In this document: positions 13,095-15,684 of the stretch, in pieces | Layout: the number at the start of each line of letters is the position of its first letter | Numbering within the stretch: position 1 is the first letter of the stretch | DNA from: a virus | DNA: 44,771 nt | Reading direction: 5' to 3' (one strand) | Virus record (IMG/VR): IMGVR_UViG_3300046461_000018 | Coordinates: 1 to 44,771 of that record | Made by a program: the position numbers and the translations under genes | The notes under the pieces: model-generated | Told to the model about the DNA's origin: nothing | What the model saw: only the letters and a program-made list of their open reading frames with translations | The model's database searches: none

Positions 13095-13685
13095 ATGGCA
13101 ATCGTCAAACTTCTGAATGCTCGTCTGTCGTTCCCGGATCTGTTCACCGCTGTGCAGTTCGAAGGTGCAGGCCCGTTCAGCTATCGCGCCGCGTTCCTGC
13201 AACCCGAAGATCAGCCGGTCATGCTTCAGCAGGCCGACAAGTCGTGGAAGAAAACCACGATGGGTAAGGTGATCGAAGCCGTCGCGGCCGAAGCGTGGAA
13301 GGCCAAGGCGCCCGCGATCCTCAAGACGCTCGAAGGCAACCCGCAGAAGTGCTGCTGGTACGACGGCAATATCAAGGAATACGACGGCTACGAAGGCAAC
13401 TATGTGCTGTCCGCATCGCGCGGTCAGGACAAGGGCCGCCCGCTGATCGTCGACAACGACAAGGCGCCGCTGACCGAATCGGACGGCAAGCCCTACGCCG
13501 GCTGCTACGTGAACGGCACTGTGGAAGTGTGGGCGCAGGACAACAAGTTCGGCAAGGGTATCCGCGCCACGCTGCGCGGCGTCCAGTTCGTCAAGGACGG
13601 CGACGCATTCAGCGCCGGTACGCCGGTTAGCGACGACGACTTCGACAAGATCGAAGCCCCGGAAACCGAAGACGACATCGCGTAA
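13095..13685 (+). CDS. Single-stranded DNA-binding protein, Enc34/DUF2815 type
   Basis: A 196-residue protein opening MAIVKLLNARLSFPDLFTAV, the hallmark of the DUF2815 family, shown for phage Enc34 to be an OB-fold ssDNA-binding protein related to T7 gp2.5. Supporting features are GPFSYRAAFL, a middle KCCWYDGNIKEYDGYEGNYVL segment and a strongly acidic C-terminal tail (DDDFDKIEAPETEDD), which SSBs use to contact partners. It pairs with the DUF2800 nuclease upstream. A GC-rich hairpin follows at 13694-13710. Confidence 0.9.
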   Translation: MAIVKLLNARLSFPDLFTAVQFEGAGPFSYRAAFLQPEDQPVMLQQADKSWKKTTMGKVIEAVAAEAWKAKAPAILKTLEGNPQKCCWYDGNIKEYDGYEGNYVLSASRGQDKGRPLIVDNDKAPLTESDGKPYAGCYVNGTVEVWAQDNKFGKGIRATLRGVQFVKDGDAFSAGTPVSDDDFDKIEAPETEDDIA

Positions 13686-13742: not shown

Positions 13743-14543
13743 ATGTCACGCATCAAAAACAACCTGACGGGCGACGTATTCGAAGCCCCGGCCCGCGACT
13801 TCGCGAACGAAGCCGACTTCACGATCGTCGACTCGTCGACCCCGATCACCGCCGAGCCGCCCGTCGCGGTGAGTGCTGCGGGGGAGTCCGTTACGTCTGC
13901 ATCGGACCCTGCCGAACCGGCTTCATCTGGCACGACCGACACACCAACCGATACCCCGTCTTCGGAGCCGGCATCGACCCAAACCGACGCGAGCCCGGCG
14001 ACGACTTCAGCATCGACAGCGGACCCCGTACCCACCGCGGCCAGTACGACGGATGGCACCGCACCGTCGGACCAAGGTGACGCGGGAAACGTTTCTACGA
14101 CCGCCACGGATTCTGGTACGACGAGTGCGACGGTCGACCCGCTTACGCCTACGTCGGATACCGGTACGACAGCTGCGACTGCGGATGCAAGTGCTTCACC
14201 GTCGACGACGAGCGTGTCTACGGATGGCACTGACCCAAACGCCGATGCCAGCACACCGCCCGTTGGTGCTGCTACCGATGCCACTACGGCTGACCCGGTC
14301 ACGCTCAACCCGACGCAACCGCCGGTCACGGACTCGGCCACGGGTAACCCGACTGGCGGCCCGACGGCCGGCAACGGTGCAACGCTCGATGCGCGCGGCA
14401 AGCACATCGTGGCCGGCCAGCTCGAAAGCGACATGCTGTTCGCAATCGCGCAGATCATCACGCCGACCGACAGCATCAAGCATGCGGCCGATGCGTTCTT
14501 CGATCAGGTGCGCTCGCAGATCGACGTCGAAGCGGCAAGCTGA
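13743..14543 (+). CDS. Ser/Thr-rich disordered protein, hypothetical
   Basis: A 266-residue protein with three zones. An ordered N-terminus (MSRIKNNLTGDVFEAPARDF) is followed by about 170 residues made nearly only of S, T, A, D, P, G, V (for instance TTSASTADPVPTAAST), and an ordered C-terminus of about 50 residues (GKHIVAGQLESDMLFAIAQI). The linker has irregular DTGTT- and TDGT-like repetition and many acidic residues but no Lys or Arg. GGAG lies 8 nt before the ATG. No family is recognised. Such linkers are usual between interaction domains, and the acidic makeup could mimic DNA. It directly precedes the structured RNA region. Confidence 0.7.
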   Translation: MSRIKNNLTGDVFEAPARDFANEADFTIVDSSTPITAEPPVAVSAAGESVTSASDPAEPASSGTTDTPTDTPSSEPASTQTDASPATTSASTADPVPTAASTTDGTAPSDQGDAGNVSTTATDSGTTSATVDPLTPTSDTGTTAATADASASPSTTSVSTDGTDPNADASTPPVGAATDATTADPVTLNPTQPPVTDSATGNPTGGPTAGNGATLDARGKHIVAGQLESDMLFAIAQIITPTDSIKHAADAFFDQVRSQIDVEAAS

Positions 14544-14548
14544 AGCAA

Positions 14549-14850
14549 GGGACCGGGAACGCGGCGGTCGGCGCCGCAGAGTACACCCGGCCCGGTCCCG
14601 CCTTCGGGCGGGGCTCTTAGGGGTGTGAGCGGCAGGAGAAATCCTCAGGCGCAAGAGACCGGAATCCTTAGCTTGCGCGGCTAGACCGGTGTCGCTCGCA
14701 CCCCTAAGAGTGGGGCGCACGTCTCCAAGTCACGCCCGGCAGCGTGGCACAAAGCTCTGGCTCGCTAACCTGCGTCGCCCGCGAAGCGAATTCACGGCGC
14801 TGGGGTGCGCAAAGGCGGTGCGCTTAATTCATTAGCGCCAAAGCCAGAGC
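14549..14850 (+). ncRNA. Candidate structured non-coding RNA in the early operon
   Basis: The 340-bp stretch 14544-14883 has no credible gene and is full of complementary segments. (1) GGGACCGGG 14549-14557 with CCCGGTCCC 14591-14599, enclosing a 6-bp hairpin 14561-14577. (2) CCCGCC-TTCG-GGCGGG 14597-14612. (3) An 18-bp stem 14614-14631 with 14693-14710, one G-U pair, closing a branched loop with an AGGA-GAAA-TCCT tetraloop hairpin and a 7-bp hairpin 14649-14678 whose loop ACCGG can pair with CCGGT 14686-14690 as a pseudoknot. (4) CACGC/GCGTG 14731-14746. (5) GCTCTGGCT-CGCTAA 14754-14768 with TTAGCG and AGCCAGAGC 14832-14850. No known RNA family was recognised. Confidence 0.7.
14614..14710 (+). 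repeat. 18-bp imperfect inverted repeat enclosing a multibranch loop
   Basis: CTCTTAGGGGTGTGAGCG (14614-14631) pairs with CGCTCGCACCCCTAAGAG (14693-14710). The only non-Watson-Crick position is T14626 opposite G14698, a G-U pair in RNA. This suggests selection on RNA structure rather than a DNA cruciform. It is the central domain of the candidate RNA. Confidence 0.85.
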
Positions 14851-14883
14851 ATGCCGGTTTAGTTGTCCTAACAGGAGATCACC

Positions 14884-15039
14884 ATGTTGTGTTACTGGCT
14901 TGCACTTATCGTTATCGCGCCGATCAGCGGCTGTCTGCTGTTCGTGTTCCTCGCCGATAACCCGACCCCGCTCGTGGCTGCGGCCGGCGCAATCGTCGGT
15001 ATGGCCGTATCGCTCGCGGCAGTGTTCTCGCTGAACTGA
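14884..15039 (+). CDS. Small membrane protein, two helices
   Basis: A 51-residue protein (MLCYWLALIVIAPISGCLLF). Two hydrophobic segments, residues 2-24 and 30-49, are separated by the polar turn ADNPTPL, giving a helical hairpin. AGGAG sits 8 nt before the ATG. It lies directly after the structured RNA, which thus forms its 5' leader. It is one of several tiny membrane proteins in the early arm. The role is unknown; holin-like or exclusion roles are possible. Confidence 0.65.
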   Translation: MLCYWLALIVIAPISGCLLFVFLADNPTPLVAAAGAIVGMAVSLAAVFSLN

Positions 15040-15041
15040 GC

Positions 15042-15653
15042 ATGGCGCGCTGGAACGTTCGCTGTAGCCGCGAGAAATGCAAGATGCGCTACGTGTTCGC
15101 CCGGCACCCCGACGACTACAAGGTGCCGCGCAAATGCGCTGGCTGCGGCGGCACCCGGTTTCGTGTCATCCCTGATCGAGCGAAGGATCGCAATGCCCAC
15201 ACACGCACCTGCGACGGCCGTGTCTACGGCGACGTGCGCGCAAGCGACTACAGCGCGGCTATGCCGCCTCACCGCCGCGGCTCGTTTGGCTGCTGGTTCA
15301 ACGCCGATGGAACTGAACGGGCAACTTACGCTTGCCCTCACGACGGGTTACCACGTTGGCCCGCTCTTTATTGTGAACAAGCGCCGCGCCCCGGTGATTC
15401 ATGGTGGCACTTTGGGTGGCAAGCGGCGCAGGCAGCGCGAGAAGCGGAATACGCCGCCCTGGGCGAATCGTGCATTGATCGCGGCGATGTATATCGAAGC
15501 GGCGCGGATGACGCGGGAGACGGGCGAACTGTACGTGGTGGATCACATCGTGCCGCTGGACGGGAAACTGGTCTGCGGCCTGCACTGGCACGTGAATATG
15601 AGAGTGATCCACTGGAAAGCGAATGCGAAGAAGGGCTGGGGCACCTGGCCTGA
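15042..15653 (+). CDS. Zinc-ribbon protein with overlapping 3' half
   Basis: A 203-residue open frame. The first 90 residues look genuine: CSREKCKMRYVFARHPDDYK, then PRKCAGCGGTRFRV, a four-cysteine ribbon, followed by a second Cys group (CDGRVYGD) and HRRGSFGCWFNADG, a pattern I associate with small phage zinc-ribbon proteins. From about residue 95 the frame overlaps the HNH gene at 15307 and its composition looks like a shadow of that gene. Either the protein really reads through, or a change of frame has lost its natural stop. The start is two bases after the previous stop. Confidence 0.55.
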   Translation: MARWNVRCSREKCKMRYVFARHPDDYKVPRKCAGCGGTRFRVIPDRAKDRNAHTRTCDGRVYGDVRASDYSAAMPPHRRGSFGCWFNADGTERATYACPHDGLPRWPALYCEQAPRPGDSWWHFGWQAAQAAREAEYAALGESCIDRGDVYRSGADDAGDGRTVRGGSHRAAGRETGLRPALAREYESDPLESECEEGLGHLA

Positions 15654-15684
15654 TATGCCGTTTGAACAATTGGAGCTTTTGTGA
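15307..15684 (+). CDS. HNH-type nuclease-like protein
   Basis: A 125-residue protein. The core is VVDHIVPLDGKLVCGLHWHVN (about residues 77-97) followed by MRVIHWKANAKKG, which fits the HNH layout D-H-I-x-P-L-x-G, G-L-H-x-x-x-N and the terminal N/K-rich helix. Preceding residues KRRRQREKRNTPPWAN are basic. Small HNH proteins of this kind are common in phages and may nick DNA or help packaging. The end is well fixed by a GTGA overlap with the dcm gene. The start is uncertain: 15307 has no ribosome site, and ATG 15193 has AAGGA but would add a shadow-like stretch. Confidence 0.6.
   Translation: MELNGQLTLALTTGYHVGPLFIVNKRRAPVIHGGTLGGKRRRQREKRNTPPWANRALIAAMYIEAARMTRETGELYVVDHIVPLDGKLVCGLHWHVNMRVIHWKANAKKGWGTWPDMPFEQLELL

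Follow-up and report, generated by a model that had tools for sequence, protein, structure and literature searches.

The gene 32 mRNA of bacteriophage T4 contains a pseudoknot that is bound by the gene's own product, the single-stranded DNA (ssDNA)-binding protein gp32. The DUF2800 RNA motif shares its neighborhood of DUF2800–DUF2815 recombination genes with the RNA core described here. GOLLD and ROOL RNAs of phages and prophages are found near tRNAs and have unknown functions; GOLLD combines a constant 3′ part with a variable 5′ part that is able to hold tRNAs (PMC12286853). Theta ribozymes, which are minimal HDV-like ribozymes, sit at the 3′ ends of phage tRNAs (PMC10879173). The RNA reported here likewise joins a conserved 3′ domain to a variable 5′ one in which tRNAs can reside, and in plan it appears to resemble GOLLD in miniature: many GOLLD members exceed 800 nt, whereas the core measures 148 nt. 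However, it adopts another fold than GOLLD and ROOL, which are classes of homo-oligomeric RNA cages, and is found not in a tRNA island but 3′ of an ssDNA-binding gene, and identity with either class was rejected since neither Rfam model gives a match. Its placement directly 3′ of phage tRNAs, as a knotted RNA, is reminiscent of theta ribozymes, but these come from hosts among gut Bacteroidota, while the named hosts of the core are Burkholderiaceae. As in T4, the mRNA for a phage ssDNA-binding protein contains a pseudoknot; in T4 it precedes the gene, whereas the core follows it and is far more elaborate. The core differs from the DUF2800 motif in having no Rfam match at all, in the window or in its relatives.

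The window, a 44,771-nucleotide stretch of viral DNA (IMG/VR record IMGVR_UViG_3300046461_000018) analyzed as a whole, carries an early operon on its + strand. Based on Pfam and PHROG matches, the gene order is DUF2800/PD-(D/E)XK exonuclease, Gp2.5-like ssDNA-binding protein (Enc34/DUF2815) and low-complexity protein, followed by the gap; 3′ of the gap come the genes of a membrane protein (51 residues), a zinc-ribbon/HNH product, a DNA methylase and a DNA polymerase of family A (Table 1). The low-complexity protein has no family in Pfam or PHROG searches; in phage BcepC6B and in the distant phage L039, the RNA directly follows the ssDNA-binding gene without it. A possible new structured RNA had been proposed for the gap from the letters of the window (the original prediction), and this proposal is borne out by covarying helices and by the absence of both a shared reading frame and an Rfam match to the core. 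On strong comparative evidence, positions 14549–14857 are a folded RNA of the + strand, and comparison of relatives shows that 14710–14857 encodes a conserved RNA on the coding strand of the operon, with a fixed triple-pseudoknot fold. That the element represents a functional RNA family is close to certain.

Table 1. Features of the RNA locus and its flanking genes in the window.
Feature	Position	Strand	Remarks
ssDNA-binding/annealing protein gene, Enc34-type, DUF2815, Gp2.5-like	13095–13685	+	PF10991 3.7e-29; phrog_112 1.7e-36
Low-complexity (disordered) protein gene	13743–14543	+	Immediately 5′ of the RNA; confined to the window's subgroup
T0, GC-rich hairpin module GGGACCGGG..CCCGGCCCGGUCCC	14549–14599	+	Optional
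T, UUCG hairpin CCCGCC-UUCG-GGCGGG	14597–14612	+	Terminator-like; U tract weak in the window
V, hypervariable stem-closed domain	14614–14710	+	18-bp closing stem 14614–14631/14693–14710; three-armed payload
Conserved core RNA, 148 nt	14710–14857	+	nhmmer/cmsearch matches in relatives
E5′ GUGGG	14710–14714	+	Pseudoknot with E3′ 14778–14782 (CCCGC) in hairpin C loop
A5′ GCGCAC	14715–14720	+	Pseudoknot with A3′ 14818–14823 (GUGCGC) in hairpin F loop
Hairpin H	14729–14748	+	14729–14735/14742–14748; loop CCGGCA 14736–14741
B5′ GCUCUGGCU	14754–14762	+	Pairs with B3′ 14842–14850; closes the C/F domain
Hairpin C	14770–14802	+	14770–14777/14795–14802; E3′ 14778–14782 in loop
Hairpin F	14814–14839	+	GGCG 14814–14817/CGCC 14836–14839; A3′ 14818–14823 in loop
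B3′ AGCCAGAGC	14842–14850	+	3′ strand of helix B
PK2 3′ strand UGCCGG	14852–14857	+	Pseudoknot with H loop 14736–14741
Linker with ribosome-binding site AGGAG	14858–14883	+	Start codon of next gene 26 nt past PK2
51-aa membrane protein gene	14884–15039	+	Slot filled by unrelated genes in relatives

The core contains seven helices (E, A, H, B, C, F and PK2), three of which (E, A and PK2) are pseudoknots. Helix B encloses hairpins C and F, and a single contiguous strand, E5′A5′, pairs with both of their loops, which is an unusual arrangement. The third pseudoknot, PK2, joins the loop of hairpin H to the 3′ end of the core. The + strand of 14540–14883 folds to −168.3 kcal/mol, beating 100 of 100 dinucleotide shuffles (z −4.2); the − strand of the gap interval gives a z of −2.8 against such shuffles. 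The three supported pseudoknots were overlooked in the original prediction, and every complementary block named there is found where it was placed. Its long-range helix (CGCTAA/TTAGCG plus GCTCTGGCT/AGCCAGAGC, with a CCAA bulge) stands in its outer 9 bp (14754–14762/14842–14850), which covary, but not in its inner 6 bp, which form completely in just 2 of 21 relatives and compete with the better supported helix F.

All seven helices are kept despite sequence change (84–100% paired; p≤5e-5 each, by strand permutation between 26 lineages). Helices E, A, H and C were tested in an alignment of 24 sequences (A2), with E left out of the fit: 96.9% of the cells are paired, compared to 79.9% after shuffling and 28–55% in slid controls, and 22 of the 26 pairs have changed on both sides, which none of 500 shuffles matches. 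Individually, helix E is 97.5% paired with three of five pairs changed on both sides, helix A 100% with five of six, hairpin H 97% with seven of seven, and hairpin C 94.3% with seven of eight. Across the 26 lineages, helix A occurs as 16 distinct strand pairs (for example, GCGCAC/GUGCGC, ACGGCC/GGCCGU, UGCCGG/CCGGCA and AGCUUC/GAAGCU) and helix F as 11, complementary in every case, and helix B as 21. PK2 likewise covaries (CCGGCA/UGCCGG, CCGGCG/CGCCGG, UACC/GGUA, GACC/GGUC, AACC/GGUU and UUCGC/GCGAA). Since the strands of B, F and PK2 had been chosen by eye in the permutation test, F and PK2 were re-tested without choosing, by taking the longest Watson-Crick helix between fixed segments (F, 96 versus 71.8; PK2, 117 versus 83.4; p≤2e-4). 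The pair cells include 53 G-U but only 6 A-C combinations, and the RNA is therefore read on the + strand. A coding stretch was rejected because the core has no conserved or common open frame among relatives: the lengths of their cores fall into all three phases, and no frame is open in the window core. Comparison of homologues, a check put forward in the original prediction, thus gives strong covariation and no codon-like conservation.

Related loci were gathered via the gene 3′ of the gap, the polymerase and two DNA patterns. A profile of 14710–14857 matches all near relatives and a wider circle that includes BcepC6B (L028, E 3e-33). A covariance model built from helices A, H and C only (R1) found phage L039, as well as prophages, including L083 and L084, in 6 of the 399 host-family genomes, and loci around DUF2815 relatives contributed ~10 further lineages. 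Altogether, the core recurs in ~26 distinct phage or prophage lineages, including the isolated phage BcepC6B. Members left out of model building are recovered (L087, 1.4e-10, and L090, 6.5e-14; model R3), the model E-values being rough due to short calibration; the most divergent members (L046 and L126, E ~0.2, and initially L110) rest partly on context and inspected helices. Within a search scope that excludes plasmid and E. coli genome collections, a genome-wide pattern search returned three Burkholderiaceae and one chance match (L054), and a class-wide genome search returned the seed genome only. Neither the window segment nor hairpins T0 and T gave a useful blastn match among phage records.

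The core is nearly always located in the gap 3′ of a DUF2815/Gp2.5-like ssDNA-binding gene, the window's counterpart at 13095–13685 included, and lies behind that gene at every locus with a readable flank. One small gene sometimes intervenes (the window, L018, L030, L141 and L155). L055–L057 and L082–L084 were found without using the ssDNA-binding gene, which is still directly upstream. The core was not detected in BPP-1-type, APSE, Yersinia, Escherichia, Acinetobacter, Vibrio, Pseudoalteromonas and Caulobacter phages that carry the same ssDNA-binding gene. In Acinetobacter phage 4316 (L075, 3052–3226), a 174-base gene-free gap behind the DUF2815 gene contains several complementary blocks and a terminator-like end and is not matched by the core models; it may represent an unrelated or very distant structured RNA. 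In BcepC6B (NC_005887.1, 34233–34463), the annotated start of gp37 (hypothetical) falls inside the RNA core, and a start with a ribosome-binding site ~85 nt downstream is a better fit.

Domain V, between hairpin T and the core, is optional. It is always closed by a long stem, and both stem sequence and payload differ in each lineage. The 18-bp stem of the original prediction is accordingly real as a stem, without a constant sequence or content. The AGGA-GAAA-TCCT hairpin (14634–14645) is present, as are the two blocks of a suggested pseudoknot (ACCGG 14658–14662 and CCGGT 14686–14690), but the latter lie in the non-conserved payload and their pairing is unsupported. In phage pairs with 94–98% identical cores, the identity of V is near the shuffled level; by this comparison, V is replaced wholesale between phages with near-identical cores.

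In five other lineages, V is a tRNA or has a tRNA-like fold. Scores against the Rfam tRNA model (cut-off 29 bits) are 48.9 bits for L083, 38.6 for L009, 43.7 for L093 (tRNA-Tyr) and 61.3 for L102 (tRNA-Arg with CCA), and a tRNA is called by ARAGORN in L005. The V domains of L093 and L102 look like functional tRNAs, as far as can be predicted. Those of L009 and L083 look like relics, since by inspection the anticodon arm of L009 has a 4-nt loop and L083 carries G at position 33 instead of U33. The L083 domain (1662–1728, − strand) has an encoded CCA and an anticodon position that would read UCA, and is rejected by ARAGORN. The tRNA-like segment of L102 also gives a sub-threshold tmRNA match (19 bits versus a cut-off of 47). 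A T-arm is found in 6 of 23 V domains, compared to 0.1 expected. Many V domains have no recognizable tRNA likeness, including the three-armed V of the window, for which Rfam and tRNA searches give no tRNA signal. V is missing in L025–L029 (BcepC6B type), indicating that the core is independent of V. Where a tRNA is present (L083, L093, L102 and L009), the core starts 6–14 nt past its 3′ end. Among ssDNA-binding-gene loci of one protein-based collection, which is no census, tRNAs occur only alongside the core (2 of ~15 loci with it versus 0 of ~62 without).

In Bordetella phage BPP-1 (L069, 12108–12226) and vB_BbrP_003 (L081, 3043–3161), the slot behind the ssDNA-binding gene lacks the core and holds a terminator-like hairpin and a 16-bp V-type stem (CGCTTTGGCTGGGGCG/CGCCCCAGCCAAAGCG); thus, the T-V arrangement exists without the core. 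L052 and L037–L038 resemble these two loci. In L161 (3037–3200), a tRNA-like sequence with a GAGTTCGAATCTC T-arm follows the ssDNA-binding gene, and the core was not detected.

The UUCG hairpin T, also named in the original prediction, is represented in relatives by varied yet complementary hairpins with a clear U tract. Its equivalent in L083, GCCTGGCCCACGGGCCAGGC-CTTTTT, is a clear intrinsic terminator. The T0 hairpin (GGGACC..GGUCCC) is missing from L001, L002 and L005. T0 and T are partly exclusive, because both use CCC 14597–14599. The T0 module recurs within the V stem of L021–L023 and stands alone as a hairpin in L024, a pattern suggestive of movement as a cassette.

The Rfam comparison proposed in the original prediction gives no match above the gathering cut-off in Rfam 15 for the core of the window or its relatives; V domains alone match, as tRNA. 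Group I and II introns, RNase P, T-box, tmRNA and known riboswitches were rejected on these grounds. A local resemblance to RNase P (GGAAAG beside a CCGGG helix) was dropped because those bases covary here. A literature search, with subscription papers outside its scope, found no description of the core RNA.

We consider it most plausible, with a probability of about 0.4, that the element is a stable, tRNA-linked phage RNA acting in trans, a reading we favor over a cis-acting leader and a ribozyme. The early-operon transcript would read past hairpin T; V and the core would fold and then be cut out or survive decay; the core would remain as a stable noncoding RNA with a trans-acting role during infection; and V would be its cargo, either as a tRNA or as a bait or adaptor shaped like one. 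This reading is favored by the swappable tRNA-like payload, by the terminators found immediately 3′ of the core in L039 and L143, and by the downstream genes, whose products fall into 17 unrelated groups among 29 loci, a finding that speaks against a role bound to any single target gene. Against it, the next start codon lies 14–52 nt (median 28) past the core in 29 of 29 loci examined, usually preceded by a ribosome-binding site, as expected for a leader; no promoter-like (sigma-70-like) site was found in the gap, and hairpin T lies upstream. Cargo in V is further at odds with the many V domains that are not tRNA-like and with the members that lack V.

The uniform spacing between the core and the next start codon, together with the tight linkage to the ssDNA-binding gene, favors instead a cis-acting element of the early operon, which we regard as a serious though tentative alternative. 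Such an intercistronic leader or 3′-UTR switch would set readthrough, stability or translation nearby, and could possibly bind a factor such as the adjacent ssDNA-binding protein, by analogy with T4 gp32. It would account for the invariable slot on the operon strand and for the intrinsic terminators directly before (L083) or after the core; the conserved unpaired CGCUAA and GCAAA could hypothetically bind a ligand. However, the regulated gene would then be any of the 17 unrelated groups, the PK2 strand leaves the ribosome-binding site uncovered, and the tRNAs or tRNA relics in V, as well as its exchange, are left unexplained.

A processing ribozyme appears improbable. Nested pseudoknots are typical of small ribozymes, and the position of the core at tRNA 3′ ends, as for theta ribozymes (PMC10879173), fits a theta-type cleavage site in a few members, where self-scission is hypothetical. 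An HDV-like ribozyme was rejected: the order of two crossing helices is the same, but the core is larger, and the helix order otherwise, the junctions and the catalytic C do not fit. In place of a P3 hairpin directly before the P1 3′ strand, C3′ and A3′ are separated by 15 nt; the partner of the C loop is the 5′ strand E5′, in contrast to the L3 pairing with J1.1/4; and AA, CA, GA or UA precedes B3′, where a catalytic C would come first in J4/2. Moreover, Rfam ribozymes give no match, many members lack V or have one that is not tRNA-like, and no invariant cleavage site is found 5′ of the core. A DNA element (an origin, recombination or cassette-exchange site) with palindromes mimicking RNA would suit the location among recombination genes (exonuclease, ssDNA-binding/annealing protein) and the precise swapping of V between conserved flanks, but is largely refuted by the excess of G-U over A-C cells on one strand, which a DNA hairpin does not predict, by covarying long-range crossing helices and by the invariable use of the coding strand.

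With the core, the small set of known large structured phage RNAs gains a well-supported family, which, like GOLLD and ROOL, couples a conserved knotted domain to tRNAs. Since the core is only 148 nt long and is present in the cultured phage BcepC6B, the role of a tRNA-linked phage RNA becomes testable in a simple system. A more speculative and rather unlikely extension is that it represents an undescribed class of phage noncoding RNA, in which a constant pseudoknotted chassis carries a fast-exchanged, tRNA-derived payload deployed in conflict with the host. If so, the payload could, for instance, bait defense factors that cut or bind tRNAs, and its turnover would record an arms race.

In L129, L134, L154, L156 and L163, a terminator hairpin lies just past the stop codon of the ssDNA-binding gene, and a strand ~20 nt downstream is complementary to its 3′ arm and U tract (e.g. 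GGGTGTTTTGC/GCAAAGCACCC), which is the layout of a terminator/antiterminator choice. Farther downstream in the window, 15042–15684 contains two long overlapping frames, one of zinc-ribbon type (15042–15653) and one with an HNH-like VVDHIVPLDGK motif (15163–15684). The same layout is found in L005, and the two frames are probably overlapping genes.
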